DNA from: Deltaproteobacteria bacterium
GTDB taxonomy: Bacteria; Desulfobacterota; WTBG01; CAIYCZ01; CAIRTM01
NCBI GenBank assembly: GCA_016875025.1
Contig: VGSH01000006.1
Span: 1 to 52,220, forward strand
Reading direction: 5' to 3'
DNA: 52,220 nt
This document shows positions 38 to 14,717 of the stretch, piece after piece. Position 1 is the first letter of the stretch. The number at the start of each line of letters is the position of its first letter. A program made the translations under genes and the position numbers. The notes under the pieces are model-generated. The model was not told the DNA's origin and did no database searches. It saw only the letters and a list, made by a program, of their open reading frames with translations.

Positions 38-106
38 GACAACCTCCTTTCTGCTCTATAAAGGCAGTATAGCAGAAAAGATCGATATGCGCAAATACTT
101 ATGTCG

Positions 107-970
107 CTATGTATAGCAGTCCTGGTCGGCCTTGACAAAAAATACGATTTCGTCACCGGGCCGGAACGTATCGTCCTGTTTGCCGCTGCGAAGCTCAATC
201 GCCAGTTTCTGGGCCGGGTTGATGACTTCAGTCAGGCTTCTGACAGTGGATTCAAAGGGCCGGGGCGGCACATCGTCAGTGCCGATGTATTCGCGGCCAT
301 CGCGCAGGCCGCAGACCCATCCGCGCATTCCCGACGGAGTTTCAATGGCAAACCAGCAGGTCGTTTGATCGTTGGCGTAGAGCTCATCGACGATGGCGAA
401 CACGTCAGCCGGCTGCAACGATGCATTAACAGCGCTTTTCAGATCCGGGGACTCGTGCACCTGCAGCGGTACAAGCGGGCGGTAGCGCGCGGAAACATAG
501 GTGCGCCCGGCAAGCATTTTCGGGCAGGCCCTGAAGCGCTCAAGCAGTTCACGCGCCCGGTCACGGTTCGGCCTGTAGCGGTCGAACTGGTACACCAGAA
601 AAAAGGCCTCCATAATCTCTCGACCGGGCAGCAAAGCTGTGCGCTGCATGATGGCGGCAAGCGCGTTGAGTGCGGCCTCGCGCACCCTGGGGCTGCGGTC
701 TTTTTCAAACACGCGGTACAGAGCGCTGAACACCTCAGGGCCGCGGACACGGCCGAGCCCGGCCGCGGCGCGCGCGCGCAGGTGCGCATCATAGCAGGTG
801 AGCATGATTTCAACAACATCGGCAAATACCAGATCGCCGCACTGCTCATCTTCAAGCATCCAGTCAAGCCGCTTGGGGGCGCACACATCGTCCGCGGACG
901 CGGCCGCCGAACAGAGCAGTAGCACCACAAGCATAGCTGTCAGCGCTGCACTGCCCTTACAGGGTTTCAT
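107..970 (-). CDS. Secreted HEAT-repeat and SH3-like domain protein of unknown function
   Basis: The 287-residue product starts at the ATG at 968-970, preceded by AGGAAAGGA. An upstream in-frame extension exists but lacks a signal. Residues 1-26 form a typical Sec signal peptide (basic start, then AMLVVLLLCSAAASA), so the protein is exported. Residues about 45-130 contain HEAT-like helical pairs (ARAAAGLGRVRG and VREAALNALAAI), and residues about 165-225 resemble a bacterial SH3 domain ending in a Gly-Trp-Val-Cys motif. The C-terminus (RPGDEIVFFVKADQDCYT) looks like the first strands of a DUF4384 domain and then stops, so the protein may be truncated. The fold suggests an envelope scaffold or binding protein; no enzymatic role can be claimed. 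The domain calls are by eye. Confidence 0.7.
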   Translation of the reverse strand: MKPCKGSAALTAMLVVLLLCSAAASADDVCAPKRLDWMLEDEQCGDLVFADVVEIMLTCYDAHLRARAAAGLGRVRGPEVFSALYRVFEKDRSPRVREAALNALAAIMQRTALLPGREIMEAFFLVYQFDRYRPNRDRARELLERFRACPKMLAGRTYVSARYRPLVPLQVHESPDLKSAVNASLQPADVFAIVDELYANDQTTCWFAIETPSGMRGWVCGLRDGREYIGTDDVPPRPFESTVRSLTEVINPAQKLAIELRSGKQDDTFRPGDEIVFFVKADQDCYT

Positions 971-1160
971 ACCGGTTGATGTCCTTTCCTGACGAGTAGT
1001 ATCGACCTGTTTATAGCATGTTCCCTGTACGGCGACAACAGCAGCGTCCCCTCGTGCCGTATCCGGCAAATCCTTAAACCCGCCTTTTTGATGCTGAAAA
1101 TTGCCTTCTAAGCCACGAAATCAGACAATTTAAAAAATTTTATGAGCAGATTCCGGCAAG

Positions 1161-1439
1161 TTATCTCAAAAAATCCTGGTCCGACCCCGGCCCAAACTCC
1201 ATTGCCTGCGGGCCGCCTTCAGTGGGAATTGGAAGGGTATGTACAATTTGTACCCACCCTTTGCCCAGCTCGGGATCGCGCCTCTTCATCCGCTGAATGT
1301 ACTGCTTGGGGTCGCGTGATTCAATCAATGCGAGAACAACATCTTCCACGACAAACCACCATTGACCCTCGTGGAGGGTTTTACGAATGCGTTTGCCTTC
1401 GAACAGCGCGATTTTGTCGATTTTCTTCTGTGCCATCAT
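1161..1439 (-). pseudogene. Bro-N domain protein, C-terminally truncated
   Basis: The 92-residue frame opens with a clear Bro-N (BRO family N-terminal) domain: IALFEGKRIRKTLHEGQWWF, then VVEDVVLAL, RRRDPELGKG-like residues and LPIPTEGGPQ. Bro-N proteins are DNA-binding-type proteins of phages and mobile elements, and bacterial versions often sit in type I restriction-modification operons. In intact relatives the GGPQ segment is followed by a conserved NTEGIFRII region and a further long C-terminal part. Here the frame instead runs into AMEFGPGSDQDFLR and stops. That tail is encoded by a 42-bp sequence (1150-1191) that recurs at 4638-4679, so the gene was probably broken at this repeat. The start is preceded by GGGAGGGGCACA, a leader shared with three other genes here. 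An HsdS tail lies directly upstream. Confidence 0.75.
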
Positions 1440-1533
1440 GGCCTTGTGCCCCTCCCTGTTTTCGGTTTATAAACACTTCCGTTTAAACAAGCCAAACAAC
1501 TGTCCGCCTGTCGGCAATTGCTCTATGTTCTTT

Positions 1534-1599
1534 TTACACCGCCATGACCTGGCCGTTCATCAGCATGGGCTGGAGCCAGTCGCAGAGGTTTGAAAGCAT
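1534..1599 (-). pseudogene. HsdS (type I R-M specificity subunit) C-terminal remnant
   Basis: This 22-codon frame reads MLSNLCDWLQPMLMNGQVMAV and a stop. The motif DWL-PMLMNGQV is a characteristic C-terminal end of many HsdS specificity subunits of type I restriction-modification enzymes. Nothing resembling the target-recognition domains is visible upstream, so only the tail survives. It is followed on the same strand by the Bro-N gene, which matches the known habit of such accessory genes lying just after hsdS. The call rests on a short motif. Confidence 0.55.
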
Positions 1600-1658
1600 A
1601 TTTTGTCTGTCACCTGGCGGTGTAATCCACGTATAAATAATTTATGTTCTGTATTGCC

Positions 1659-1687
1659 TTGATCGACCTTATAGGCTAAAGTGTAAT
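1659..1687 (+). promoter_or_regulatory. Candidate sigma-70 promoter for a small RNA
   Basis: TTGATC at 1659-1664 and TGTAAT at 1682-1687 are separated by 17 bases, the optimal spacing. Transcription would begin at about 1692-1696, inside the first of two hairpins that end in a T-run. No open reading frame on this strand fits the promoter. Confidence 0.4.
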
Positions 1688-1692
1688 TGTTC

Positions 1693-1760
1693 TCTGCCAG
1701 TGGCACGAGAACCTACAAAGGCCACCGCCGAGCCAGCCTGGCAAATCGGCGGGTTTTTTT
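1693..1760 (+). ncRNA. Candidate small structured RNA with its own terminator
   Basis: Two consecutive hairpins follow a promoter-like sequence. The first is formed by GTTCTC (1689-1694) with GAGAAC (1707-1712), enclosing the palindrome TGCCAGTGGCA (1695-1705). The second pairs CCGCCGA (1725-1731) with TCGGCGG (1746-1752) and, inside it, GCCAG with CTGGC; it is followed by seven T residues (1754-1760), a classical intrinsic terminator. The transcript would be about 65-70 nt. It lies downstream of, and in opposite orientation to, the DUF3800 pseudogene. I do not recognise it as a known RNA family. The second hairpin alone could simply be a terminator for rightward readthrough. Confidence 0.4.
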
Positions 1761-1794
1761 ATGCCTTGTTTCTTTAAGAAAAATAATTTGTTTG

Positions 1795-2085
1795 TCACCT
1801 TTTGCGCTGTTCAACGGCAATGCAGCGAAATCGCAGATTATCTCCCTGCGCGGCAAACCAGTCAATGAGTTCAATATAAAAATTCTGTTTTGATGGTGTC
1901 ACTTCTCGCCATTTAAACTCTGGCCCTATTCTATATTTGTCGCGCAGTTAATGAATACTTCCCTTGAACCGTGTCCTGTCATCGGTTTTAAGCCAAAGAC
2001 TGCCGATGAGCATATATTTCGCCAGTGGTTTTTGGGTGGTCAGGAGATCGGGGCGACTCTCATCGCAGTAGATATCGAAATTCAT
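1795..2085 (-). pseudogene. DUF3800 family protein, broken by an in-frame stop and truncated
   Basis: Reading leftward from the ATG at 2083-2085, preceded by GAGGAAAAG, the frame begins MNFDIYCDESRPDLL, the typical N-terminus of DUF3800 proteins. These are RNase H-like-fold proteins often found in mobile and defence contexts. The similarity continues through YMLIGSLWLKTD, reaches a TAA in place of an expected Glu codon after 45 residues, then resumes in the same frame with LRDKYRIGPEFKWREVTPSK and LRFRCIAVEQRK before ending at a TGA (1795-1797). Normal members are well over 200 residues, so the 3' half is missing as well. The gene begins only nine bases after the stop of an HsdS tail (2095-2157), placing it in a former type I restriction-modification operon. 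Confidence 0.75.
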
Positions 2086-2094
2086 CTTTTCCTC

Positions 2095-2157
2095 TTACGC
2101 CACCGAGACCTGGCCGTTCATCAGCATGGGCAGAAGCCGATCAGCGGAGATGTTGAA
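2095..2157 (-). pseudogene. Second HsdS C-terminal remnant
   Basis: On the reverse strand this segment encodes FNISADRLLPMLMNGQVSVA followed by TAA; an in-frame TAG immediately precedes it. RLLPMLMNGQV matches the usual C-terminus of HsdS specificity subunits. It resembles, but is not identical to, the tail at 1534-1599, so it comes from a different hsdS gene or allele. The following gene on the strand is the DUF3800 pseudogene, nine bases away. Confidence 0.6.
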
Positions 2158-2270
2158 CTATTATTAGCCCCTTGCCTTATTATCTCTGTCAAAACAGTTC
2201 ACGCAACCAACGGCTCAGATGATAGTCGCAATCCAGCCGGAAAACTTTCATGATTCTCCGGCGGGACTCT

Positions 2271-2311
2271 GGTCCTTGAACCTTGGACTTTGGACTCGCG
2301 ACTTTGGACTT
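2271..2311. repeat. Degenerate GGTCC/GGACTTT repeat array
   Basis: This stretch is made of imperfect repeats of a roughly 10-base unit (GGTCCTTGAA, CCTTGGACTT, TGGACTCGCG, ACTTTGGACT). The same unit in the complementary orientation builds the array at 10430-10509. It has no coding sense and lies in an intergenic stretch between gene remnants. Confidence 0.6.
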
Positions 2312-2404
2312 AGCTCATGCCCTCCCTCGCGCAAAAAACTTATTTACTTTTTTAAGGGCGTTCCGCTGATGGCCATTTGCGGTTTATTAACTTTTATTGC
2401 GTTT

Positions 2405-2443
2405 AAAAAAACTGTAGGCCGGACTAAACGAAGCGAGTCCGGC
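2405..2443 (-). terminator. Hairpin with downstream T-run after the KilA-N gene
   Basis: GCCGGACT (2418-2425) and AGTCCGGC (2436-2443) form a perfect 8-bp stem with a 10-base loop, starting just past the KilA-N stop codon at 2446. On the gene strand seven T residues follow, after a six-base gap that is longer than in an ideal intrinsic terminator. Confidence 0.45.
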
Positions 2444-2445
2444 AA

Positions 2446-3267
2446 TTATTTTCTTCCCGATTCTAATTTTTTTATATGAACATTCTCCGTCAACAGCCGC
2501 ATCTGCTGAATTGCGATTTTGTTGAGTTTGGTCAAACGCTCTGTTTGCGGCATGCCTTCGTTGATGAAAAGAGCGTTCAGGTTCTCAAGATTTGAAAGGC
2601 ACACAAGCTGCGACACATCGGCATAGTCGCGGATATTGCCCTTTTTGTCATCATTACTGTCGCGCCACTGTTTAGCGGTCCTACCGAAAAGCGCCATATT
2701 GAGCACATCGGCCTCAGTTGCATAAACACGATTAACCTGCTGCCTTGTGAGCTCTTTCGGAATCAGGTTCGCCCTGATGGCGTCAGTATGAATACGATAA
2801 TTGATCTTGGCCAGATTGCGCTTAATGTCCCAGCCGAGCTGCTTGTGTTCAACTTCTTTTAAGCGCTGGAATTCCTTGATGAGATAGAGCTTAAATTCAA
2901 CGGAAATCCAAGATGCAAACTCAAAAGCTATATCCTTATGGGCATAAGTGCCGCCATACCTGCCGGGCTTCGAGATAAGACCAATGGCATTGGTTTTTTC
3001 AATCCATTGGCGTGGCGTTACTGTAAAACTGTTAAGACCGGCCTGTTTTTTAAACCCGTCGAATTCGACGGGTTTAAAACCGGGGTTATTCAACAACTCC
3101 CATATTCCTAAGAATTCGATTGTATTCCTGTTCCTCAGCCAATTTCTGATCAAATCATCAGTTCGGTCTGAATTTTTGTACCGTGCGATATCGGTAATAC
3201 AGATATAATCTTCCTGATCTTTACAAATTACAGCAATTTGCCGACCTTTTACTTTCATTGTAGCCAT
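2446..3267 (-). CDS. KilA-N domain protein
   Basis: This 273-residue protein has an N-terminal KilA-N domain (residues about 5-115): an initial beta hairpin (GRQIAVICKDQEDYICITDI), then RNWLRNRNTIEFLGIWE and, further on, GRYGGTYAHKDIAFEFASWI, a hallmark of the family. KilA-N is a putative DNA-binding domain of phage and mobile-element proteins. The C-terminal half (about 120-273) is helical and matches the conserved region of bacterial KilA-N proteins. The ATG at 3265-3267 has a good site (CAGGAGGGGCACA), the same leader motif as the Bro-N, DUF1016 and ORF6N genes here. The gene appears intact and isolated. In other genomes such genes often lie within type I restriction-modification operons, and hsdS debris is nearby. 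Its function is unknown. Confidence 0.85.
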   Translation of the reverse strand: MATMKVKGRQIAVICKDQEDYICITDIARYKNSDRTDDLIRNWLRNRNTIEFLGIWELLNNPGFKPVEFDGFKKQAGLNSFTVTPRQWIEKTNAIGLISKPGRYGGTYAHKDIAFEFASWISVEFKLYLIKEFQRLKEVEHKQLGWDIKRNLAKINYRIHTDAIRANLIPKELTRQQVNRVYATEADVLNMALFGRTAKQWRDSNDDKKGNIRDYADVSQLVCLSNLENLNALFINEGMPQTERLTKLNKIAIQQMRLLTENVHIKKLESGRK

Positions 3268-3467
3268 TGTGCCCCTCCTGATTTTTTGTTTGTAATTCCC
3301 GCGAATCCGCTGGAATCGAGTTTGTGCTCAGCCGGTTTGGCCGATTACGGAATTTTCAAGCCTCCTTATTAAAGACGCTCACAGTATTGTCGCTTTCCGG
3401 CCGAAAAACTTCCCATGATCTTCAACCGCGTGCATATGACATAGTTTGCCTGCCCCGTATTTTTCCC

Positions 3468-3664: not shown

Positions 3665-4048
3665 TTAAAGTGTGTCGCGGGAAAGGTCGGAAATGATTTT
3701 CCGAATTGTCAGAGCAAGCGGGCCAATTTTATCATTGCAGGTATTGAAGACCGCCTCGGCGTTCACTTCCGAGTAATGATGCGTTAGAATGTCGCGCATG
3801 CCCTTGGCCTTCTTCCAGTCAATATCAGGGTAATTCTCAAGGAGTGTGCCGTCTGTTTTCCTGTCGAGGTTCTTCAACGCCTCACCGACCACAATCAGAA
3901 GCATACAGATCGAATCCATTTTCTCGACGCCGGCGGGACTGTTCGTAAAGTCAGCGACAGTTGCAACCGGCTCAAACCGGTTGAGTATTGTCGTTGCCGC
4001 TTCCTCAATCTGCCGGAGTATTTCCAGGACCAGTTCCCTGTCAAACAT
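3665..4048 (-). CDS. hepT: HepT-like HEPN ribonuclease toxin
   Basis: The 127-residue product is a HEPN-domain protein of the DUF86/HepT family. The signature R-x4-H-x-Y is present as RDILTHHY (R85, H90, Y92), which is the RNase active site in characterised HepT toxins. The rest is a compact helical bundle including MDSICMLLIVVGEALKNLD, as expected. Its start overlaps the end of the nucleotidyltransferase gene by eight bases, the usual arrangement of hepT/mntA modules. HepT toxins cleave RNA, and the MntA partner neutralises them by adding AMP groups to the tyrosine of this motif. Both key residues are intact, so the toxin is probably functional. Confidence 0.88.
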   Translation of the reverse strand: MFDRELVLEILRQIEEAATTILNRFEPVATVADFTNSPAGVEKMDSICMLLIVVGEALKNLDRKTDGTLLENYPDIDWKKAKGMRDILTHHYSEVNAEAVFNTCNDKIGPLALTIRKIISDLSRDTL

Positions 4049-4331
4049 AGACCGCTTCCCTGTCTATGCGGGTTTTCAAAAAACGGTTCATATGCTCACG
4101 GTATGCAACAATATCAACCTGCTTATGCAGCTGATCTTCAAGCTCCTGCTTGATCCCCGCCAGGGAAAACAGATCCGGTTTTTCAAGAGCAACAACGATG
4201 TCAACATCGCTGTCATCACGGGCGTTGCCGCGCACGACAGAACCGAACAGCCCCAGCCTGCGTATGCCGTACTGAGCGGCATGCCGGGCCTTGTAGCTCT
4301 TCAGGATTTCAAGAATTGCCTGTTTGTCCAT
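4041..4331 (-). CDS. mntA: MntA-like nucleotidyltransferase antitoxin
   Basis: This 96-residue minimal nucleotidyltransferase carries the canonical GS-x10-D-x-D motif: GSVVRGNARDDSDVDIVV, with S31, D42 and D44. In characterised HepT/MntA systems this enzyme AMPylates the HEPN toxin and so silences it. The gene overlaps the downstream hepT by eight bases, so the pair is translationally coupled. The length is normal for the family and the motif is intact. Confidence 0.88.
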   Translation of the reverse strand: MDKQAILEILKSYKARHAAQYGIRRLGLFGSVVRGNARDDSDVDIVVALEKPDLFSLAGIKQELEDQLHKQVDIVAYREHMNRFLKTRIDREAVYV

Positions 4332-4708
4332 TGTTGTGCACCCCGTGGCTGCGCTGAACGGCGTAGAATCATCCTGTTTGGGAAACTACACTATTTTGCA
4401 ATGAGAATCCAATAAAAATAAGCTCGAGCTGCGGACCGCGCTGTTTACGCAACATATGTCCGGACAAGGGCTGTGTCCTGAGCTCAGTCGAAAGGTCCCG
4501 CAGCGCAGGATGAACTCCGCTTGGCCGGCCACTCCTTACACCCGCCTTTTCACTACCAAAAAGCGCCCCCGAAGCCCCTGATTGTCATTTCGAATCCCGG
4601 CACCGTCGGGGTGAGAAATCTGAAATTTTATTGAAGTATTCCGGAAGTGTGCATCAAAAAATCCCGGACCGACCCCGGCAGCATTCGGATTTTCCCGCAG
4701 CGCATCCA
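4332..4708. other. Gene-free stretch with fragments of dispersed repeats
   Basis: No convincing gene is visible. The stretch holds a CTGAGCTCAGTCGAAAGG segment similar to a common dispersed repeat (a related one lies near 49260-49345), a GTCATTTCGAATCCCGG segment, and the 42-bp repeat at 4638-4679 shared with the end of the Bro-N gene. Confidence 0.4.
4638..4679. repeat. 42-bp repeat shared with the broken end of the Bro-N gene
   Basis: This segment begins ATTCCGG and ends ATCCCGGACCGACCCCGGC. It matches 1150-1191 over the same length with a few substitutions, including an identical TCAAAAAATCC core. At 1150-1191 the repeat supplies the foreign C-terminal codons of the truncated Bro-N frame. 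Confidence 0.55.
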
Positions 4709-5362
4709 TTAGTCGCTGAATGCCAACTCCCTGACACACCTATCCCGGCTATCACATAATGCTATAATCTGTTGCACTGCCGATGCATAGTCAGGTGATT
4801 CAACACTACCCAGTACCTGCTTTGCTTCATCGAACCTGCCGAGATGGCGAAGCACCTCCCCTTTCATCATGCGGTGGTCGTCATTTTTTTCAGTTAAAAG
4901 AGAGGCCAAAATTTCTAAATTCGTACTCCACAACCCCGGCTCGCTCGAAATTTTCTTTTTCCTGGATGCTTTCCTGAAGGCATCATTCCTTCGCCAAAAT
5001 GCGAAAACCCTAAGTTCCACCTCTTGTCCTTTATCTTTTGCCAGTCCTTTTTTAATAGCCTGGTAGTATTGCTTCTCTGTGGGCTCCTTGACCATTTGCG
5101 CATCAGCCCACTCAGTATTGGTTGGTTCATTTCCATCTGGACCCCAGTCTACAGTACCAACCTCTTTAGCATCATCCAGCCAATAACACTCCCCACAGTG
5201 GCGGCATTTCACTACAGCCGGCGGGTGCGGCAGCATCGGAGCCTCCTGCTTACCATCCGTCCAAACACGTGCACCACATGTATTGCCTGACAGCAACGTC
5301 TCATGCCGCGCACGACCTTTACACTTAGGACAGGCAATAATCTGATCAGGGCCGGGCAGCAT
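4709..5362 (-). CDS. Zinc-ribbon hypothetical protein with C-terminal helical region
   Basis: The product is about 217 residues from the ATG at 5360-5362; a TTG four codons upstream is an alternative start. The N-terminus has two CxxC pairs, ACPKCKG and KCRHCGECYW, flanking a NTCGARVWTDGK segment, which together should form a zinc ribbon (residues about 8-62). The C-terminal half is helical and polar, with a TPR-like stretch (GEVLRHLGRFDEAKQVLGSV). I know proteins of this general layout only as uncharacterised. It is a single gene between the HepT/MntA module and the DUF2442 gene on the same strand, with spacing too large to imply an operon. Confidence 0.65.
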   Translation of the reverse strand: MLPGPDQIIACPKCKGRARHETLLSGNTCGARVWTDGKQEAPMLPHPPAVVKCRHCGECYWLDDAKEVGTVDWGPDGNEPTNTEWADAQMVKEPTEKQYYQAIKKGLAKDKGQEVELRVFAFWRRNDAFRKASRKKKISSEPGLWSTNLEILASLLTEKNDDHRMMKGEVLRHLGRFDEAKQVLGSVESPDYASAVQQIIALCDSRDRCVRELAFSD

Positions 5363-5546
5363 ATCAAAAATCAACTCTCATCTACAGATACCGTGCCGTG
5401 AGGTATTTAACTCAGGATACGAAAATCAGTATGGTGTCACCGGATTTAATTCCTCCCCCTCCGGTTTGTATTTATTTTTCTATGGACGACCCCTGGTATT
5501 CTCCGGATGCTGCGGAAAAGCTGTCCTATCCGGACATCGGCAATTA

Positions 5547-5771
5547 TTAGAACCGGCTGGGAATGCCAAGCACGATGCCTTCAACGGACAGGTCTTCATC
5601 GACCGCAGGCCAGTGAATGCCCGTCCCCCGCCCGATCAGTTGATACGTATTGCGCTGGGATGCGGTCGCATGCTTGAGCCGCGGATAAAATTCAAGCGGC
5701 ACCTTGACTTCCCTGCCGTCATCGAGCACAACGCAGAGAAATTTTTTCTCAAAATAGACTTTCACCGCCAT
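5547..5771 (-). CDS. DUF2442 domain protein, TA-like partner of DUF4160
   Basis: The 74-residue product from the ATG at 5769-5771 fits DUF2442: VYFEKKFLCVVLDDGREVKV, then PLEFYPRLKHAT, NTYQLIGRGTGIHWPAVDEDLSVEGIVLGIPSRF. The conserved G-x-G-I-HWP-x-x-D-EDLS motif is complete. DUF2442 and DUF4160 genes are commonly paired and have been suggested to form toxin-antitoxin-like modules. Here DUF2442 begins four bases after the stop of the DUF4160 gene. The upstream partner is frameshifted, so the pair may be inactive while this member remains intact. Confidence 0.8.
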   Translation of the reverse strand: MAVKVYFEKKFLCVVLDDGREVKVPLEFYPRLKHATASQRNTYQLIGRGTGIHWPAVDEDLSVEGIVLGIPSRF

Positions 5772-5775
5772 GAAT

Positions 5776-6026
5776 TCATGTATTTTTTTTGCGGCTGAAG
5801 AACCCATTCCATTTCTCCATAATTATTTTTTCATTCTGCTCGACAAGGGAAAATGCCCTGCTCAGTTCAGCCGATGTCATCCCATGGTTCTGTGCGAGGC
5901 TGACAGGATTAAGCCAGAATTTTGCGACAGCATCATTGCGCTGTACATGTATATGCGGCGGTTCGTTCCGCTCATTGGCATAAAAGAAAAACCGGTATCA
6001 TGCTTTCGAAAAATGGTCGGCGACAA
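5776..6026 (-). pseudogene. DUF4160 domain protein, inactivated by a single-base deletion
   Basis: The likely start is a TTG at 6024-6026 with GGGAGG upstream, giving MSPTIFRKH. Restoring one G after the CAT codon (near 5999-6002) joins this to YRFFFYANERNEPPHIHV, then FWLNPVSLAQNHGMTSAEL and KIIMEKWNGFFSRKKNT. Together they make a complete DUF4160 protein of about 83 residues with the family's NE-PPHIHV core. The lesion is exactly one missing base in an otherwise well-preserved sequence, so it is either a recent mutation or a sequencing or assembly error. The stop is four bases before the DUF2442 start. Confidence 0.75.
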
Positions 6027-6137
6027 ACCGTGCTCCCTCCCCGATACGCCCCATGCAGGCGTTTCAATCATTAAAAAAAAGTATAGGCCGCTGCTTCATG
6101 CGAGTCAATACAAATGTAATCGGAAAACTTTCAACTG

Positions 6138-6530
6138 TTATGAGCAATATTGAACAACCGTTCGTATCACTTTCCAATGCCGTTTGGTGTACGTTGCCAC
6201 AGGATATATCCGGGTAATGGCGGGATCAAAAACACGGGTGCCGTCAGAGGCGACCCAGTGGCCGTAGTCGCGGTAATCCGGCCTGATCACGATAGCAGCA
6301 GGGCAGGTGGGCAGTCTGTGGTCGGCAAGAGGCCGTTTGACCGGCCGGGTGATCGGCCAGGCGGACCCCGTGAGTGCCTCCATGACCTCTATGAAGGCGG
6401 CACACCCCATGCCGGCCTCATGCAAAAGCCGATTCGCCACACGGGCAGCCTCGGTATATGAAACACCCGCGAGCATGGCAGCGGTCGCCACGCCGCAATC
6501 AATCACTGCCCTTTGTCGGATGTGTTTCAT
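6138..6530 (-). CDS. C39-like cysteine peptidase domain protein
   Basis: The 130-residue protein has the layout of a C39-family (papain-like) peptidase domain. The DCGVATAAMLAG motif supplies the catalytic Cys12, GHWVASDG the His91, and VFDP the Asp102. Families of this type process double-glycine leader peptides, but many stand-alone members have unknown substrates. There is no ABC transporter domain and no adjacent bacteriocin-like gene, so a processing role cannot be assumed. There is no signal peptide, so it is probably cytoplasmic. No strong Shine-Dalgarno is seen. It lies alone among accessory genes. Confidence 0.65.
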   Translation of the reverse strand: MKHIRQRAVIDCGVATAAMLAGVSYTEAARVANRLLHEAGMGCAAFIEVMEALTGSAWPITRPVKRPLADHRLPTCPAAIVIRPDYRDYGHWVASDGTRVFDPAITRIYPVATYTKRHWKVIRTVVQYCS

Positions 6531-6594
6531 AAGTCATACTGGCAGCTTGATGTGTCTATTTATGAACGTTTGATGGTTCCCTGATTAGTTATTC

Positions 6595-6616
6595 AACCAA
6601 TTCAACAACGTCCCCT
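6595..6616. repeat. Short dispersed repeat, copy 2
   Basis: CAACCAATTCAACAACGTCC matches 3607-3628 with one difference. The two copies also share weaker similarity in the flanking bases, including the start of a C-run. Confidence 0.4.
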
Positions 6617-6659
6617 CTTCCAGCCATGGGCTGACCAGCAAGCCAAGAAAAGTTCCAAA

Positions 6660-6944
6660 TCAATCGTATTTTTCGTGCAATAGCGCACCGTTGCACAAAG
6701 CCATGTTGATAGTATGAGTTGTGTCGCTCATCAAGGATGAAAGGGCTATGGTTTCAACGGAATCATCTATGAAGTTTTCAACTTCATAAATCTCTTTTTG
6801 CGGATCATCAGAGCTTTCAACCCGCGCAATGGCCTTGCTCGACTTAAGCCCACCATTTAAACAAACAATAAATTCATAAGAAAGGCCTTCTTCTGAGAAG
6901 ACCTTTCTAAAATTGCTCCAGTTGGATATTTTGACTAATTCCAT
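6660..6944 (-). CDS. Hypothetical small protein, last gene of a putative HNH/DUF2075 operon
   Basis: The 94-residue product (MELVKISNWSNFRKVF start) is not a family I recognise. It is acidic and has no membrane segment or signal peptide. It starts 25 bases after the stop of the DUF2075 helicase gene on the same strand and shares that gene's AT-rich composition, so co-transcription is likely. In defence operons, small genes in this position often encode accessory or regulatory subunits, but nothing in the sequence proves that here. Confidence 0.55.
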   Translation of the reverse strand: MELVKISNWSNFRKVFSEEGLSYEFIVCLNGGLKSSKAIARVESSDDPQKEIYEVENFIDDSVETIALSSLMSDTTHTINMALCNGALLHEKYD

Positions 6945-6969
6945 AGCTGCGGCGTCAACAAGGGTGAAA

Positions 6970-8958
6970 TCACAAGACCGACAGACCTAAAGATTTTAAA
7001 TACTCAAAAGTCGTATCATAATATTCATGCTTCCGTGTATGATCTTCAGAATTACCCTCAGGGACTACAACCACCATCCCTTGCCGCGCACGGGTTAAAA
7101 GCACGCGGTAGGCATTCTTAAGATAAAGCTGACGTTCAGCTTTTTTGATCTTTTGCCATTTTGATCCGACAAATGAAAAATGGTGCCAGTCGCCTTCTGT
7201 ATAGCGGAAATCACCATCCCATGTTACACACGCCCAATCAAGCTCAAGGCCTTGAATATCGAACTCTGTGGCAACATCCTCAAGATAATACGATGAGCGA
7301 ACATCGTCTTTTCCATCAAGAAACCAATGAATCGGCTCAGTCGTTGCACGCACATCAATAGCCAATGGTTTAAGTCTTAGTGCTTGCGAAGAAACAACTA
7401 TGCCATAGCGTTCTGTCCCTCGTGCCTGGTTTTTCAACCATGCTTTTGCCTTCTTAAGGTCGCGAGTCAACACAATTGGATATTTCGAATTAATCTGCGC
7501 GAGCGTTTCTTTTGCGTCATCGGGCTTGCAATCGAGGACTTGTTTAACAAACAATGAAACATTCTCAGCACGAAAAGAACGCATTGAAACAGCAAGGTGA
7601 AGGGCCTCATTCAAAAAAACATTCTTTCGTGTTTCGAGGCTCCTCAACGCATCACCAGCAGCACACTCGGCGTCAAAGAGTCGGGGCGATATGTGTACGT
7701 GCCACTCAGGAAAAGAACGGTTCAAAGAGTCTATCCATTCGCTGATTCCGGCTTCACCGGTATTTATTTCCTGCCCTCCGCCAACCAAACAAACGACTAC
7801 AGCCCAATCTTTGTGACGGTCTAGGCATGAAATTAAAAACTCCGGTTCTGATATATTGAAATCATGGTTGCCTCTCCTGCGTCGCATAAACTGTACTGTC
7901 TGATCAATATCCCATGCGCGTTGGGCTTCATCAAATAATGCAACGTGTTCAATCGGTGGTCGAAGGTCGACAATACATGCATCCCGGAAATGGTGAATAT
8001 TTTGTATGAACATCTTAACTTCACTCATAACAAATTTTTTTGTAACTTTATTACCTTGAGACTTTTCGCGTTGAACTTTATCACGGGTTAAAGCTTCTCT
8101 GAGTATGTCAACAAGGGGGCCATTACCTGAAAGGTATACGCTATAAAGGTCGCTTTTATTATCAATATGTGTTGTAGCAATGTCCAACCCCACAAGCGTT
8201 TTCCCCGCGCCAGGAACACCAGTAACAAAACAGATGGTTTTAAAAAATTTTTCTCGTGAAGTACGGATGATTCCTGAAATTGACTCAGATGTTTGGCTGA
8301 GGTTTATTGCGCTTGCATCGCTTCGAGAAATCTCATGAACTGCATGGCCCTTATAGAGAGCCATTGCAGCCTCGATAATTGTAGGCGTAGGACTATAACG
8401 ACCTCTTTCCCATTCGCTTGAATCAAGAAACTCACCCTCTGCAAAAGCAAGAACTTCATGGAATACGCTGCCAAGGGTATCTACGTTCGATTTAATCGGT
8501 AAAAAGAATTTGTCGTTCTGCGGGGTTAATGAAACGACCGGGCTGACATGCTTAACTTCGGTAGAAATTAAAACAGGCGCTATAAATTTATCATGGCTTG
8601 GCTCGTGGAAATTTTTCAAGTCCAACGCATAATCACAGACTTGATCGATGGCGTGTGTTGTAAAAGCCTTTTCACCTACTTTAAATTCAAGGACAAATAT
8701 AACGGGGCCAATGAGCACGACCGCATCGATCCGTTGGCCCATCCTAGGAATTGAATATTCAAAATAAATCGAGCCCTGGTATGACACCAAGACATCTTGA
8801 AGAATTGCTATTTGATCAACCCATGCACTGCGCTGTGCTTGCAGCAATGTAAAATTATTGTTCAGCGCAAGCTCACCCAAAATTTCTTTTTGGGGAGCCC
8901 GCAAAAAGCGTTCAATTGTTGCTGAGTAATATGCACGTTTTAAAATTTGTTCTTGCAT
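6970..8958 (-). CDS. PD-(D/E)XK nuclease-like and DUF2075 helicase fusion protein
   Basis: The product is about 662 residues from the ATG at 8956-8958; in-frame TTG (8967) and GTG (8961) codons are alternatives. The N-terminal third looks like a PD-(D/E)XK nuclease: GQRIDAVV (D78), IFVLEFKVG (E91, K93) and a QVCDYA motif (Q106). The C-terminal part is a DUF2075 superfamily 1-type helicase domain with Walker A GVPGAGKT (about 247-254), Walker B LFDEAQ (about 342-346) and a late motif [20 protein letters not shown]2075 helicases are related to the helicase region of Schlafen proteins and recur in defence loci. The gene starts a few bases after the HNH endonuclease stop, forming an apparent operon. 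All visible catalytic residues are intact. The nuclease assignment is by motif reading only. Confidence 0.8.
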
Positions 8959-8971
8959 CACAATCAAACAC

Positions 8972-9880
8972 CTAAGCCTGAAAACAATTTTTTAAATGCC
9001 AATTGAGTCTATCCGGATCTGGCTGCATCGACTGCTGCGACGGAATGACCGATAAAGGCTGATTATCGAGCCGATAATAGGCCTTACCATTGAACCATGT
9101 TTCGCGTATTCGTGGGCTGACCTTTACTTTGAGTTCCGGGGTCACCCCGACAAGGCCCACATCGAAGAGACGATGGAAATCCGCTCGCAGCAAAAGACCA
9201 TTGCGCACATCATGATCGCCAGCATCAGAGTACGGCACAATATGCGCTGCCTCTAAAGCAACCAAGGTACTTTCACCTGTAATAGCGCAGCGGCGCTGAT
9301 ATGCATCTGTAACGAGAACACGGAAGGACGATTGGCCAAGGCGTGGTCGAACAGCTATAGCTTCGCCGTATTTTTCTCTTTGCTCTGCGGCCTGAAGCAT
9401 TGGTTGCTCGACTTGACTTAATTGAACATTTTTCCACAAAACACGGCCTAGCACATCGCCGGTTTCGTACATCTTCCCCCGGACTATGTTAGATGACCAG
9501 CCGGGGATATCCTCGATCCATTGCTGTTGCTCAAGAAAAAATGGATTTGCAAGCACCGTGCAGCCGATGTCACCGTCCTTAAATTCGCGAGAGACGAGAG
9601 GAGCAATAATTCGGCGAAGGTCTTCCAGGGATGAGCAACCGTTCTTTTCTCCGAAGACCTCCCACGCAAGACTGAGAGGAAGCCTGCTGTACGTTACAAA
9701 ATAGCCACCGCCTGCTATATGGTTATATGGGCGTTTTAGCTTGAACAAAAAAGGCATGCCTGTTGGTGCGTTGGTAAATGGCGGGGTTGCACTGGGTTGC
9801 CAGAAATTGACCTCATCCGGTCTTTTTTCAGACAGGAAGTTGAACCACTGATTATCCGTGACACCGACCCAAAGCTTCAT
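8972..9880 (-). CDS. HNH endonuclease with N-terminal EVE/PUA-like region
   Basis: The 302-residue product starts at the ATG at 9878-9880. The N-terminal half carries the conserved [20 protein letters not shown] and [14 protein letters not shown] signature seen in a recurrent family of predicted restriction HNH endonucleases, and may be a base-reading EVE/PUA-like module. The C-terminal half has an HNH domain: CAITGE (C198), [14 protein letters not shown] (H213) and [15 protein letters not shown] (N227, H236). It most likely cuts DNA, perhaps modified or foreign. The gene is followed almost directly by the nuclease-helicase fusion gene, which suggests a joint role. It is preceded by a small hypothetical gene 78 bases upstream on the same strand. 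Confidence 0.82.
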
Positions 9881-9958
9881 AAAGTGCGCCTTTATCGACT
9901 TTATCCTGCCAGCCTGCCCAACCTCCACGCCAGCGCATCCATGCGCGGATAAAACGTT

Positions 9959-10216
9959 CTATTCCCCTACAATGCCGTCAAAGGTCACCTTCCCGGTTTT
10001 TTTTGAAACACATATAAATCTGCATCCGCCAACGGCCATTATACCGTCAAGCTTCGGCACAAACATGCACCAGTAATCTTTTTTGTCTTGAGAAGGCAGA
10101 TAGACGCAGATTTCTTCGGGGATGCCGTCAAGAATTCCAAAGAAGTTTTGCAGCTCGATGCCAAGGTGTCTGAGGACGATTTCCTGTGCCTGCTCTTTTG
10201 AGATGTGTTCGCTCAT
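9959..10216 (-). CDS. Small hypothetical protein upstream of the HNH gene
   Basis: The 85-residue product begins MSEHISKEQAQEIVLRHLG and ends CVSKKTGKVTFDGIVGE. The closing beta-hairpin-like SKKTGKV-FDG recalls small PepSY-like or immunity-type proteins, but I cannot place it in a family. There is no signal peptide or membrane helix. It is on the same strand as the HNH/DUF2075 genes, 78 bases upstream, and could be the first gene of that operon. The Shine-Dalgarno is weak. Confidence 0.5.
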   Translation of the reverse strand: MSEHISKEQAQEIVLRHLGIELQNFFGILDGIPEEICVYLPSQDKKDYWCMFVPKLDGIMAVGGCRFICVSKKTGKVTFDGIVGE

Positions 10217-10429
10217 AAGTCAGGCGCCCGGTTGACGTTGAGGCTGGAGAATGCGCGGATGTAGGCTGTAATGTCAGGCATCAGTACGTATACCGGTCAG
10301 TATCCCCTCCGCATTTTTTATGGTTAATAATTTTTTAGCACATTTGTTCGAAAGCTTACGCAATCCTATCTAAGTTTAAATAGTTAGTCAACGAAGTAAT
10401 GCAGAAGTAATGCAGGGGGCGTAGCTTTC

Positions 10430-10509
10430 GGTCCAAGGTCCGATGAACCGGTCCAAAGTCCAAAAAAAGCGGTCTATGGTCCAAAGTCCCTGGTCCAATG
10501 TCCAAAGGT
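10430..10509. repeat. Array of GGTCCAAAGTCC-type imperfect repeats
   Basis: About seven degenerate copies of GGTCCAAAGTCC or its half-units stand in a row (GGTCCAAGGTCC, GGTCCAAAGTCC, GGTCCAATGTCC). The same unit occurs in reverse complement at 2271-2311. No coding frame is maintained. Confidence 0.65.
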
Positions 10510-10563
10510 TTTCTGCACCCCTTTGGCGCCCAAAGAAGCGGTGCCCCCAAGAAAGAACTATAC

Positions 10564-11008
10564 GGGCGGCCACGGGGGGACCGCCCCTACGGACATGCGT
10601 GTCGACCGAAATCCGCGTGCGCACGCTTCGCTCTGCATCGCTGCAACGGGTTTTTTAGAACATAGAATCAAAACATAAAAAATGGATCTCGCATCAAGTG
10701 CGGCATGACAGGATAAGATCAAAGCCCTAAGATTTCTCAGTCGCTTCGCTTCTTCGAAATGACAATCTTGTAGATTTTGAATTTGAGGTTTTGGGTTTTA
10801 AATCCCCATCGGAGCGCAGCCGAGCCGGGTGCAGTATCAAGGATACGGTCGTTATGCTGTCTGAGCGCCCGAATGTGCGAGTTCATAACGACCCCTTGAG
10901 AATGTGCCCGGCTCGGGACTCCCGACTTTAGTCGGGACGCGATCCGCAGGGGCGGCTTTCTTGGGGGCACCCTTTCTTTGCCGCGAAAGAAAGGGTGCGA
11001 AAAAATCT
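10564..11008. repeat. Roughly 440-bp direct repeat, copy 1
   Basis: This block begins GGGCGGCCACGGGGGGACCG and ends GGGTGCGAAAAAATCT. It recurs almost unchanged at 12072-12506. Within it are a GGGCGG/CCGCCC hairpin, a TTTCTCAGTCGCTTCG dispersed motif, the conserved-loop hairpin (10847-10893), and a perfect 13-bp inverted repeat (GCACCCTTTCTTT and AAAGAAAGGGTGC). The two copies flank the TA operon at 11138-11742. No conserved reading frame is evident, so the block is probably noncoding. Confidence 0.85.
10847..10893. repeat. Conserved-loop hairpin, copy 1
   Basis: A perfect 10-bp stem (GGTCGTTATG at 10847-10856 with CATAACGACC at 10884-10893) encloses a 27-nt loop, CTGTCTGAGCGCCCGAATGT then GCGAGTT. 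The loop recurs in three other places in this window on differing stems. Confidence 0.75.
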
Positions 11009-11103
11009 GCTCAACGAACGGGATTTAAAACTATCAAGGGAAGAAACCAATCTAAAGAGCGACTATAGCATGTTGACGACAACAGTTTACTTCAAGATAC
11101 ACC

Positions 11104-11133
11104 TTGACAAGGGTGTAGCCAATTGGCTACAAT
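11104..11133 (+). promoter_or_regulatory. Sigma-70 promoter of the TA operon
   Basis: TTGACA (11104-11109) and TACAAT (11128-11133) are 18 bases apart. The toxin ATG is at 11138, only four bases past the -10 box, so a transcript from this promoter would begin at or just after the start codon and the toxin mRNA would be leaderless or nearly so. Confidence 0.7.
11115..11130. promoter_or_regulatory. Perfect 16-bp palindromic operator over the TA promoter
   Basis: GTAGCCAATTGGCTAC is a perfect palindrome covering the spacer and the first half of the -10 box. The operon's second gene encodes a helix-turn-helix antitoxin, so autoregulation at this site is the obvious reading. Confidence 0.65.
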
Positions 11134-11137
11134 CTAA

Positions 11138-11428
11138 ATGTACGAAATACGCGCAACCGATACGTTTACTCAATGGCTCGACAGGCTTCGTAATATTCAT
11201 GCACGAGCTCGTATTATGTCCAGGATCGAACGGCTTGCCCTTGGCAACCCCGGAGATGTGAAGCCTGTCGGTGAGGGAGTCTCTGAGCTGCGGATTGACT
11301 ACGGCCCGGGGTATCGGGTGTATTACACCATGCAAGCAAGTAAAATAGTCATTTTGCTTGCCGGTGGCGACAAACGAACCCAGGACAGGGATATTAAAAA
11401 AGCTATTGCCCTGGCACGCAACCTTTAA
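11138..11428 (+). CDS. RelE/ParE-superfamily toxin (addiction module killer protein)
   Basis: The 96-residue product belongs to the HigB-like group of the RelE/ParE superfamily: a start of the type YEIRATDTFTQWLDRLRN, then ARARIMSRIERLALGNPGD, SELRIDYGPGYRVYYT and LLAGGDKRTQDRDIKKAI. Proteins of this group inhibit translation, usually by mRNA cleavage. The gene lies 14 bases upstream of an HTH antidote gene, the toxin-first order typical of higBA-type modules. A strong promoter and operator overlap its start. The key basic and aromatic residues of the family are present, so it should be active. The whole module is bracketed by the 440-bp direct repeats. Confidence 0.88.
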   Translation: MYEIRATDTFTQWLDRLRNIHARARIMSRIERLALGNPGDVKPVGEGVSELRIDYGPGYRVYYTMQASKIVILLAGGDKRTQDRDIKKAIALARNL

Positions 11429-11442
11429 GACTTTAAACTGTC

Positions 11443-11742
11443 ATGCAAAAAACAAAAACAACCCGCTACGATGTTGCTGAATATCTCCGCACACCCGAGG
11501 AGATGGCCGCCTATCTTGAAGCCTGTATCGAAGAAGCTGACGGTGATGCCGCCTTTATTGCAAAGGCTCTGGGCGATATCGCCCGTGCCAGAGGCATGTC
11601 ACAGGTTGCCCGCGATGCCGGCCTTTCCCGTGAAAGCCTGTACAAGGCCCTTTCGGGTGATCGAAGCCCTGCCTTTGATACAATTCTCAAGGTTGTCCAC
11701 GCCCTGGGCCTGAAACTGCACGCCGAAGCTTCCAGCCGCTGA
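11443..11742 (+). CDS. HTH antitoxin (addiction module antidote protein)
   Basis: The 99-residue product matches the putative addiction module antidote family paired with HigB-like killers. It has an N-terminal region (YDVAEYLRTPEEMAAYLEAC) typical of that family and a Cro/CI-type helix-turn-helix (about 50-95) with GMSQVARDAGLSRESLYKAL and FDTILKVVHALGLKL. The antitoxin should bind the toxin and repress the operon at the palindrome 11115-11130. It begins 14 bases after the toxin stop and is clearly co-transcribed. No clear terminator follows; the downstream DNA is repetitive. Confidence 0.88.
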   Translation: MQKTKTTRYDVAEYLRTPEEMAAYLEACIEEADGDAAFIAKALGDIARARGMSQVARDAGLSRESLYKALSGDRSPAFDTILKVVHALGLKLHAEASSR

Positions 11743-11839
11743 ATTTTTGATTTCTGTTTGCCGCATCCAGCGCGACATAGAGTTGCGCCCTCACCTCCCC
11801 TGATGATCCTTTGGCACACGATGCAAACTGGAAGAACTT

Positions 11840-12036
11840 TTCGTTCATTTCTTTGCTCACTCCAAAGAGCTGTAGCTGTCCCGACTAAAGTCGGGACTCA
11901 ACAACCAAAACGCGCAGCGTTAAAGCCTGAAAGGCTTTAAGAAAGGGTGCCCGTCCTCCGCAGTAGCCTGCTACGGAGGGTGGACCCAGCAACTCGGCCT
12001 GCGGCTGCCCTCGCGAAACGCACGCACGCGGGGTCG
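11840..12036. repeat. Inverted partial copy of the 12.7-kb repeat module
   Basis: CGTTCATTTCTTTGCTCACTCC near 11840 is the reverse complement of the block ending near 12823 with one mismatch, and GCGAAACGCACGCACGCGGG near 12013-12032 is the inverted counterpart of CCCGCGTGCGTGCGTTTC near 12727-12744. Between them lies a CCGAC/GTCGG hairpin and a GTCCTCCGCAG/CTACGGAGG hairpin (about 11953-11984). The two ends thus match module 3 in inverted order, with extra hairpin units inserted. Confidence 0.55.
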
Positions 12037-12041
12037 GCACT

Positions 12042-12069
12042 GTAGGGGCGACCGGCCGGTCGCCCCTAC
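12042..12069. repeat. Perfect 28-bp palindrome
   Basis: GTAGGGGCGACCGG followed by CCGGTCGCCCCTAC is a perfect 28-bp palindrome. It stands immediately before the second 440-bp repeat copy, and similar GTAGGGGC units occur at 47398 in region 3. Confidence 0.75.
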
Positions 12070-12071
12070 CT

Positions 12072-12506
12072 GGGCGGCCACGGGGGGACCGCCCCTACGG
12101 ACATGCGTGTCGACCGAAATCCGCGTGCAAACGCTTCGCTCGGCATCGTTGCAACGGGTTTTTTAGAACATAGAATCAAAACATAAAAAATGGATCCCGC
12201 ATCAAGTGCGGCATGACAGGATAAGATCAAAGCCCTAAGATTTCTCAGTCGCTTCGCTTCTTCGAAATGACAATCTTGTAGATTTTGAATTTGAGGTTTT
12301 GGGTTTTAAACCCCCATCGGAGCGCAGCCGGGGCGGGTGCAGTATCAAGGATACGGTCGTTATGCTGTCTGAGCGCCCGAATGTGCGAGTTCATAACGAC
12401 CCCTTGAGAATGTGCCCGCGAGGGAATCCGAAGGACGCGATCCGCCGGGGCGGCTTTCTTGGGGGCACACTTTCTTTGCCGCGAAAGAAAGGGTGCGAAA
12501 AAATCT
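12072..12506. repeat. Roughly 440-bp direct repeat, copy 2
   Basis: This block is nearly identical to 10564-11008 throughout, with few substitutions and a shortened segment around 12415-12440 that accounts for the ten-base length difference. It includes the same conserved-loop hairpin (12355-12401) and the AAAGAAAGGGTGC inverted repeat arm. Together with copy 1 it brackets the TA operon. Confidence 0.85.
12355..12401. repeat. Conserved-loop hairpin, copy 2
   Basis: This has the same 10-bp stem and 27-nt loop as copy 1, as part of the 440-bp duplication. It is therefore not independent evidence for covariation. Confidence 0.75.
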
Positions 12507-12667
12507 TTGAGATTTTGGATGCCGGATCAGGGTCCGGCATGACAAGGCATTGCGGACGTGCGGAAGCCCGTCCCTCCAAAAAATCGTGGCCATGCAGCGC
12601 GGCCACTACGTTTGCTTTTCAGGTTTTGGTTTTTAACCCCATTGCAGCGCAGCCGAGCGAAGCGTGC

Positions 12668-12735
12668 GCACGCGGATTTCGGTCGACACGCTGTTTGAGC
12701 GCCCGAATGTGCGAGTTCGTGTCGTTCCCGCGTGC
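12668..12735. repeat. Conserved-loop hairpin, copy 3, with a different stem
   Basis: The same 27-nt loop (12691-12717, CTGTTTGAGCGCCC...GAGTT) is closed by CGACACG (12684-12690) and CGTGTCG (12718-12724), then by an outer stem GCACGCGG (12668-12675) and CCGCGTGC (12728-12735). None of these stem bases match those of copy 1, yet all pair. Confidence 0.75.
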
Positions 12736-12876
12736 GTGCGTTTCACAAGGGTAGCCGAAGGCCGAGTTGCTGGGCGCCCTTTCTTTGGTTCGTTTCTTTG
12801 GAGCGAGCAAAGAAATGAACGAACAAAAACCGGGCTTTTTGCCAGGCTTCTATGTCTTCAAATGCGCTCATCGGGC

Positions 12877-13968
12877 TCACGGCCTTAAGCCTCCAGGATT
12901 TGAACTATGTCCTTCAAGTATCTTTACGATTTGCTCAGGGCTGGGCAATTGTCCCCTGAGCGCTTTGGGCAGTGTTTTTACGATCCGGTAGGTGGCTACG
13001 CCGATGGGCTTGCCGGCTGGCATGAGAGCGTATTCGACAATAGTCCGGTTTTTCTCCTTACACAGGATAATGCCGATAGCGGGGTTCTCCCCCTTCTCGC
13101 GCACCTGTTTGTCGAGAACGCTCAAGTAGAACTGCATCTTGCCGACATACTCAGGCTCGAACTCGCCGATCTTGAGCTCGATGGCGACGAGGCACTTGAG
13201 TCGGCGGTGGAAAAGCAGCAGATCGATGAAATACTCCCTGCCCTCGACCTCCAGGCGGAACTGGCTGCCGACAAAAGCGAACATGCCTCCCATAGCGCGG
13301 AGGAAATTCTCGACGCGGCCGATCAGGGCACGCTCCAGCTCGCGCTCAGAATGCTTGTCGCCCAGCTCCAGAAAATCGAAGGTGTATTCGTCCCTGACAG
13401 CAAGCCTGGCCCGGGCGCGCAATGCCGGGCTCAGCGCCGCATCGAAATTTGTCTGACCCAGCAGGCTTTTTTCGTAACTCTGATTTTCGATCTGGTGGAT
13501 GAGAACGTTTTTCGACCAGCCGAATTTCCGGGTCATGCGAATGTAGAATTCGCGCTCCAGGAAATCTTTGCAGCGGGACATGATGATCAGATTATGGCTC
13601 CATGCAATTTCTCCAACCAGCGGTTGGAGTTTTGGCGCCGCATGATATTCGGAATACAACTGCCGCATATACCAAAGGTTCTGAACGGAATATCCGCCGG
13701 AGCCGGGAAACTCCCTCTGAAGGTCGGCCGCAAGAACCTTTACGACTGATCGACCCCAGCCTTCGGTACTTTGTCGTTCAACGATAATTCGCCCGATGTC
13801 CCAGTACAAACCGACCAGCTGCCTGTTGACTGTCCGCAGGGCGGCAGTGCGGGCTGCGCGGATACGCTCTTTTATTTCTGCAAACGCTGAAGCATAGGAT
13901 GCGGGCAGATTATTTTTTGTTGGGTCAGAAGCGGCCGTCTTTTGTTGATGAGGCTTTCTTTTTGTCAT
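12877..13968 (-). CDS. DUF1016 (YhcG-like) PD-(D/E)XK nuclease family protein
   Basis: The 363-residue product from the ATG at 13966-13968 (MTKRKPHQQ) has the two DUF1016 regions. The N-terminal helical domain (about 25-150) contains RTVNRQLVGLYWDIGRIIVE, GYSVQNLWYMRQLY and IAWSHNLIIM. The C-terminal PD-(D/E)XK nuclease domain (about 190-340) has D249, E264 and K266 in the context FIDLLLFHRRLK and VAIELKIGEFEPEYVGKM. Family members are predicted DNA nucleases associated with mobile elements and some restriction-modification loci. The frame continues upstream but without a ribosome site; the chosen ATG follows CTGGAGGGGCAATA, the leader shared with the Bro-N, KilA-N and ORF6N genes. The protein appears full length and intact. 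Confidence 0.9.
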   Translation of the reverse strand: MTKRKPHQQKTAASDPTKNNLPASYASAFAEIKERIRAARTAALRTVNRQLVGLYWDIGRIIVERQSTEGWGRSVVKVLAADLQREFPGSGGYSVQNLWYMRQLYSEYHAAPKLQPLVGEIAWSHNLIIMSRCKDFLEREFYIRMTRKFGWSKNVLIHQIENQSYEKSLLGQTNFDAALSPALRARARLAVRDEYTFDFLELGDKHSERELERALIGRVENFLRAMGGMFAFVGSQFRLEVEGREYFIDLLLFHRRLKCLVAIELKIGEFEPEYVGKMQFYLSVLDKQVREKGENPAIGIILCKEKNRTIVEYALMPAGKPIGVATYRIVKTLPKALRGQLPSPEQIVKILEGHSSNPGGLRP

Positions 13969-14717
13969 TATTGCCCCTCCAGGTATTGAAAAAATTTTTG
14001 ACGTGCATGTAAAAAAAGTTTCCGTGCGCAATGGAATTCCATATACCAGTGCAGTTAGAATTCCGCACCCGACATGATTCGGATGAGCACACGGTTTATA
14101 AATAGTGCGACAGGATACAGGTACAGGACTTAATGGCTGGCCCCTCCGCTTTTTATGGGTTTTGTTTATAGCACAATTAAACAAAAGCTTCTGCGATAGT
14201 AGCGGAAGAGAGAAACTTAGTCAACAAAGGAATGTGTCCCCCCTTCTTTGCCGCCAAAGAAAGTGTCCCCCCAAGAAAGAACTATACGGGCGGCCACGGG
14301 GGGACCGCCCCTACGACATGCATAACGACCCGGCCCCGCACTCATGCATGAGGGCGCTTCACGAAGCTCCCCTACGCAGCAAAACGATGGGGATTTAAAC
14401 CCCAAAAGTCAAAATTAAAGATTCTATGTTGAAGGTTTTTAAAACCCGTAGCAGCGAAGCCGAACAAAAGGCATGGACACGGGTGCCGGCGGCGCGCTGT
14501 TTGAGCGCCCGAATGTGCGAGTTCGTGCCGCCGCCGTGAACATGTCTTTTGTGAGGGCAGCCGCAGGCCGAGTTGCTGGGTGCCCTTTTTTGGGGGTACC
14601 ACTTTTTTGGGCACGCAAAAAAGGGGTACAAAAAAAGCTTTGAGATTTTGGATGTCGGATCGGTTATGAGCGGACACACCGTGCGTGTCCAGAGGAAGAA
14701 CCATCAGTCCGGAACGC
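13969..14717. other. Gene-free stretch with repeat modules
   Basis: Between the DUF1016 start and the antitoxin stop lies about 750 bases without a gene. From 14235 it is assembled from the same modules as 10.5-12.8 kb: a TTCTTTGCCGCCAAAGAAAG inverted repeat, the 50-base GGGCGGCCAC block (about 14266-14318), the conserved-loop hairpin copy 4 (14472-14544), and an imperfect inverted repeat GTACCACTTTTTT and AAAAAAGGGGTAC near 14596-14629. Confidence 0.6.
14472..14544. repeat. Conserved-loop hairpin, copy 4, with a third stem sequence
   Basis: The identical 27-nt loop (14497-14523) is closed by CGGCGGCGCG (14487-14496) and CGTGCCGCCG (14524-14533), ten pairs including one G-U wobble. Outer pairs CACGG/CCGTG (14478-14482, 14534-14538) and CATG/CATG (14472-14475, 14541-14544) extend it. 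The stem sequence is unrelated to those of copies 1 and 3. Confidence 0.75.

Follow-up and report, generated by a model that had tools for sequence, protein, structure and literature searches.

An EVE-HNH endonuclease gene adjoining a PDC-S41 helicase-nuclease gene in a Deltaproteobacteria bacterium: a possible two-gene type IV restriction module

Gene content and layout of the locus

The window (the whole stretch of DNA that was analysed, 52,220 nucleotides of contig VGSH01000006.1) was checked for open reading frames, and all four ORFs that a sequence-only reading had grouped as a possible defence operon were found, at the same coordinates and on the minus strand. In the direction of transcription these are an 85-aa ORF of unassigned function (bp 9959 to 10216), a 318-aa HNH endonuclease with EVE-like (PUA-superfamily) and HNH_2 domains (bp 8972 to 9928), a 665-aa protein joining a PD-(D/E)XK nuclease to a Schlafen-group-3 (SLFN-g3) SF1-type helicase and assigned to PADLOC PDC-S41 (bp 6970 to 8967), and a 94-aa ORF (bp 6660 to 6944). 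The HNH protein probably starts at Met17 (base 9880), because the N-termini of its relatives begin at the equivalent position, and with this start the gap to the upstream 85-aa ORF is 78 bases, as first reported. The helicase gene has a TTG start, with a GTG 6 bases and an ATG 9 bases further in, so that the HNH stop codon is separated from it by 4 bases, or by 13 when counted from the ATG. A 25-base gap, also as first reported, separates the helicase gene from the 94-aa ORF.

The block had been described as AT-rich, which applies to the helicase gene (41-45% GC, AT-rich against its own surroundings) but not to the HNH gene, which at about 50% GC is similar to the rest of the first 16 kb of the window; the remaining 36 kb are mostly 55-64% GC. 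A genome of the same genus (G104; genomes are designated G and loci L throughout) carries neither the HNH gene nor the helicase gene, and the description of the region as accessory was therefore borne out. Upstream of the four ORFs, two direct repeats (bp 10564 to 11008 and bp 12072 to 12506), 97% identical over stretches of 300 and 74 bases, lie on either side of a toxin-antidote pair of the Gp49/HigB and HI1420 types (bp 11138 to 11742), as in a mobile or duplicated cassette.

Were the locus a four-gene defence operon, the 85-aa and 94-aa proteins would be essential to it, for example as an inhibitor or regulator, and their position on the same strand at gaps of 78 and 25 bases agrees with this. 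Against it, searches of Pfam, PADLOC, NCBIfam and PHROGs gave no match for either protein, and neither has a homologue in 19 other related genomes or a relative near any examined locus carrying either large gene. This part of the sequence-only reading did not hold up: we consider a four-gene operon very unlikely, and the two small genes, doubtful members, probably lie outside the system.

The HNH protein

The HNH protein matches Pfam HNH_2 above the cut-off (50 bits), and a PDB sequence search returned 6yex (VcaM4I) as the best match, over the HNH domain (E = 6.7e-11). VcaM4I, a modification-dependent endonuclease of the EVE-HNH kind, has had its catalytic residues H224, D250 and D254 mutated and tested (PMC7897488). 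Read from the 6yex alignment, these correspond to H229, H252 and D256 of the HNH protein, and its predicted catalytic residues (H229, N243, H252 and D256) are invariant in 10 homologues. Like VcaM4I and other EVE-HNH type IV enzymes, the protein combines a PUA-superfamily N-terminus with an HNH C-terminus in about 310 aa and has its catalytic positions at equivalent sites, but sequence similarity to VcaM4I is limited to the HNH domain, and VcaM4I has Asp where the family described here has the canonical second His. A helicase is not mentioned in the VcaM4I paper.

Over its N-terminal 170 residues the protein matches nothing in Pfam, EVE included, and this region was assigned from a predicted structure of moderate confidence (mean pLDDT 66.5; mostly 57-86 in the N-terminal region). 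In a Foldseek search VcaM4I was the best PDB fold match (E = 8.5e-6) and TagI also matched, while the N-terminal part of the model matched several ASCH proteins (E about 1e-4, TM-score to target about 0.5-0.67). Since the whole-chain TM-score to VcaM4I is only 0.26 and model confidence is moderate, it is the N-terminal part that carries the PUA assignment. These fold matches support a predicted PUA-superfamily reader domain, EVE or ASCH, and agree at superfamily level with the EVE/PUA-like N-terminus first proposed. Taken as a whole, the protein is a probable modification-dependent HNH nuclease. The phosphorothioate-dependent HNH family of ScoMcrA-type endonucleases (NCBIfam NF045808) was considered and rejected; the likeness is confined to the C-terminal 120 residues, whose 66 bits fall far short of the 180 set as the curated cut-off, and nothing in the N-terminal part matches.

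The helicase-nuclease

The helicase matches the PADLOC model PDC-S41 (PDLC05014) end to end, residues 10-664 aligning with positions 2-652 of 657 at 943 bits, and Pfam PF09848 (SLFN-g3_helicase) scores 276 bits. By sequence, then, the helicase alone is an already catalogued phage-defence candidate, and the statement that the locus corresponds to no named system is true of the pair, which has no PADLOC name, but not of this gene. PADLOC treats PDC-S41 as a single gene without a partner, whereas here an EVE-HNH gene precedes it; no publication naming PDC-S41 was found in the literature searched. The PD-(D/E)XK residues D81, E94 and K96 are invariant in all 44 sequences having that region, D81 and E94 being the D78 and E91 singled out earlier by counting from the ATG. 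In Walker A (residues 250-257) K256 and T257, and in Walker B D346 and E347, are likewise invariant among up to 46 sequences of the core family.

The label 'Schlafen-like' is apt for the helicase domain but not beyond it, as the AlbA-type RNase core of the Schlafen N-terminus is absent and the N-terminus carries D-ExK motif residues instead. A Schlafen protein with RNase was therefore rejected, the SLFN-g3 helicase domain being the only Schlafen part found. Also rejected were AbiO and Nhi, for which the PADLOC matches span only some 40-50 residues around Walker A (E = 3e-5 and 1e-4).

A fold search with the helicase model, which is of mediocre quality (mean pLDDT 71), gave RecD as its top match; UPF1 and human SLFN14 ranked lower. 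Such matches, from a poor model, would suit a DNA repair or RNA-processing enzyme, with the HNH gene as a mobile passenger and no joint anti-phage role. The distribution of the helicase-nuclease is, however, sporadic (7 of 395 genomes of the phylum), and relatives are present on plasmids and viral contigs. A query with the single helicase protein gave three loci in genome contigs and no match in viral contigs. Elsewhere PDC-S41 helicases adjoin an HNH_2 protein whose N-terminus differs (L176) and C5-methylase, Vsr, DUF4420 and AIPR genes, company that is restriction-related; of these, the methylase, Vsr and AIPR genes also speak against such a role. We accordingly regard a repair or RNA-processing role as unlikely.

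Some PDC-S41 helicases lie inside C5-methylase/Vsr/DUF4420/AIPR or Z1 loci (L169, bp 5845 to 13004, and L174, bp 4061 to 11719). We take these loci to be of the Mza or paraMORC type; for Mza, the link comes from a PADLOC MzaD match in L169. The Mza and MORC-paraMORC restriction loci carry C5-methylase, Vsr, Z1, DUF4420 and AIPR genes (Iyer et al. 2008, PMC2292703). The likeness extends to relatives of the helicase and not to the window, where none of the Mza genes is near the pair; with MutL, Z1, DUF4420 and AIPR absent among the annotated neighbours of the pair, Mza was rejected for this locus.

Recurrence of the HNH-helicase pair

Full-length EVE-HNH homologues were found in ten genomes of the phylum besides that of the window, together with one partial copy, among 395 genomes searched. 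Twenty-two distinct full-length EVE-HNH loci were compared in all, of which five adjoin a PD-(D/E)XK-SLFN-g3 helicase: the window, L035, L047, L049 and L119. The HNH searches were blind to helicases, and 2 of the 11 non-window genomes with EVE-HNH (G099 and G351) nevertheless had a helicase next door, encoded at L047 and L049 on the same strand as the HNH gene at distances of 51 and 85 bases. Of 98 other genomes from the phylum, only 3 contained an SLFN-g3 helicase of any kind. The binomial probability of such adjacency by chance is about 5e-4, given an assumed, unmeasured and generous rate of 10% for co-resident copies lying side by side. Two further pairs were found from the helicase side: at L035 (Acidobacteriota), PDC-S41 and EVE-HNH genes lie tail to tail 16 bases apart, and at L119 (G516, of the same phylum) two SLFN-g3 helicase genes are followed about 30 bases on by an EVE-HNH gene, located by six-frame search, again tail to tail. 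The helicase at L049 (bp 10233 to 12665) has an S24 (LexA-type) peptidase domain at its C-terminus, a possible link to DNA damage.

The five paired loci show three arrangements, two helicase subfamilies and gaps of about 4-85 bases, and their HNH proteins are dispersed across the HNH tree. The tail-to-tail genes at L035 and L119 are incompatible with a conserved operon, and a fixed operon was rejected given the varying gene order, strand and helicase subfamily, with most copies standing alone. Pure accident of adjacency was rejected as a full explanation, the pair recurring in L035, L047, L049 and L119. Repeated co-occurrence, which had been proposed at the outset as a test of the pair, was thus found in four unrelated genomes beyond the window, and we take the partnership to be a non-random yet loose one that was assembled several times.

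Most members of both families are nonetheless unpaired: 17 of the 22 distinct full-length EVE-HNH loci are without this helicase and EVE-HNH is missing from about 70 helicase loci, which counts against a two-gene module. Beside the closest HNH relatives of the window (L010, L011 and L052) a pyrophosphatase takes the place of the helicase, and no HNH gene accompanies the closest relatives of its helicase (L033 and L036). The nearest HNH relative of all, a partial sequence from the same family (L051, bp 1 to 3385; 80% identical over 172 residues), has next to it downstream a metallophosphoesterase gene and one for an SMC/Rad50-type ATPase, which are SbcD/SbcC-like and so likewise a pair that processes DNA ends. 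At L045 a type I restriction helicase subunit is encoded 16 bases downstream of EVE-HNH, at L063 the neighbour is a type ISP enzyme, and on a contig from a viral collection (L053, bp 4547 to 9852) EVE-HNH has a second HNH_2 gene on one side and, on the other, an IetS-type subtilase with its likely AAA partner.

The main rival explanation is that an EVE-HNH type IV enzyme and PDC-S41 may be two independent single-gene defence systems, brought together in one transcription unit by the clustering of defence genes and doing no joint work. Both families usually occur apart, the PADLOC entry for the helicase is that of a single-gene candidate, and EVE-HNH is also found beside the type I subunit, type ISP enzyme and IetS-type protease mentioned above. 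The window itself holds another single-gene candidate, PDC-S02, a YhcG/DUF1016 PD-(D/E)XK protein at bp 12877 to 14184. On the other hand, given how seldom this kind of helicase occurs in the phylum, finding the same architecture directly adjacent (about 4-85 bases) in five tree-scattered loci is more than would come easily from clustering at the level of defence islands. We regard two independent systems as a substantial possibility, although one falling short of an even chance.

Pyrophosphatase and NUDIX neighbours

A small MazG-like protein is encoded next to EVE-HNH at seven loci: L041 (bp 8901 to 9245), L042 (bp 283 to 639), L043 (bp 9919 to 10296), L044 (bp 9553 to 9930), L047 (bp 3699 to 4040), L049 (bp 12665 to 13006) and L052 (bp 8945 to 9283), those of L044 and L047 having been located by six-frame search. 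Such a neighbour is present in 6 of the 11 genomes of the phylum that carry EVE-HNH besides that of the window. PDB searches with the two proteins tested, from L041 and L049, gave matches to dCTP pyrophosphatases of the DCTPP1/RS21-C6 kind (E = 3.5e-18 and 2.2e-24, respectively), and human DCTPP1, a homologue of these neighbours, prefers 5-methyl-dCTP (PMC4491611). The gene order at L047 and L049 is pyrophosphatase, SLFN-g3 helicase, HNH, while L207 and L208 have an SLFN-g3 helicase and a pyrophosphatase without HNH in the sequence examined.

NUDIX hydrolases occur in similar positions: after the HNH gene at L047 (bp 7000 to 7626), directly downstream of a PDC-S41 helicase gene at L062 (bp 2660 to 3058), and fused to the N-terminus of a PDC-S41 helicase at L168 (bp 7639 to 10002), those of L047 and L168 being recognised by sequence similarity and a NUDIX box seen by eye. 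The window carries no pyrophosphatase gene, and a search of the remaining genome, which has limited weight, gave none either. MazG is not mentioned in the literature searched on modification-dependent enzymes.

A wider view, which we put forward tentatively and hold to be rather doubtful, is that EVE-HNH represents an uncatalogued modular type IV family consisting of a reader-cutter, an exchangeable end degrader and often a DCTPP1 or NUDIX pyrophosphatase that would clear 5-modified dCTP. The degrader would be either a PD-(D/E)XK-SLFN-g3 helicase or SbcCD-like, and the pyrophosphatase would stop salvaged phage nucleotides from marking the host genome for cutting. The window would then have the reader-cutter and the degrader, and lack the pyrophosphatase.

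Proposed mechanism and comparison with known systems

Modified-base readers beside helicase-nucleases are already described in operons of stand-alone EVE proteins with SWI2/SNF2 helicase-nucleases (Hma or BREX-related; PMC7641849, PMC12839542), but those helicases belong to another superfamily and the operons include a methyltransferase and a DUF499 ATPase. In the EVE survey there is no mention of DUF2075 or of Schlafen, nothing in the literature searched joins DUF2075, defence and HNH, and the HNH-helicase pair is absent from PADLOC as a system; as far as our searches reach, the pair has not been described. The helicase candidate and the EVE-HNH kind of enzyme are known, and what would be new is their pairing.

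What stands of the pair as a defence system is a probable modification-dependent HNH nuclease beside a PD-(D/E)XK-helicase in an accessory region; a fixed system does not stand, as most copies are unpaired. The HNH and helicase genes have the domain content, conserved catalytic residues, tight co-directional spacing and recurrent adjacency described above, and we judge the chance that they form a two-gene type IV (modification-dependent) anti-phage restriction module to be about even. For such a module we infer physical cooperation against phage in the following order. The N-terminal PUA-superfamily domain of the HNH protein would recognise incoming DNA by a modified base, probably a 5-substituted cytosine, close to which the HNH domain would make the first break. 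The PD-(D/E)XK-SLFN-g3 protein may then load at the break, unwind the DNA by an ATP-driven reaction and degrade it with its own nuclease, turning a repairable cut into irreversible loss of DNA. An exchangeable degrader would fit the SbcD/SbcC-like genes at L051, or the type I helicase subunit at L045, standing in the place of the helicase.

If the two-gene module is real, PDC-S41, which is catalogued but unexplained, would gain a partner and a likely role, and modification-dependent nucleases would be seen to enlist processive DNA degraders that are encoded separately. The related loci further suggest that a dedicated dCTP pyrophosphatase may provide self-protection after the recycling of phage nucleotides in cells that cut 5-modified cytosine.
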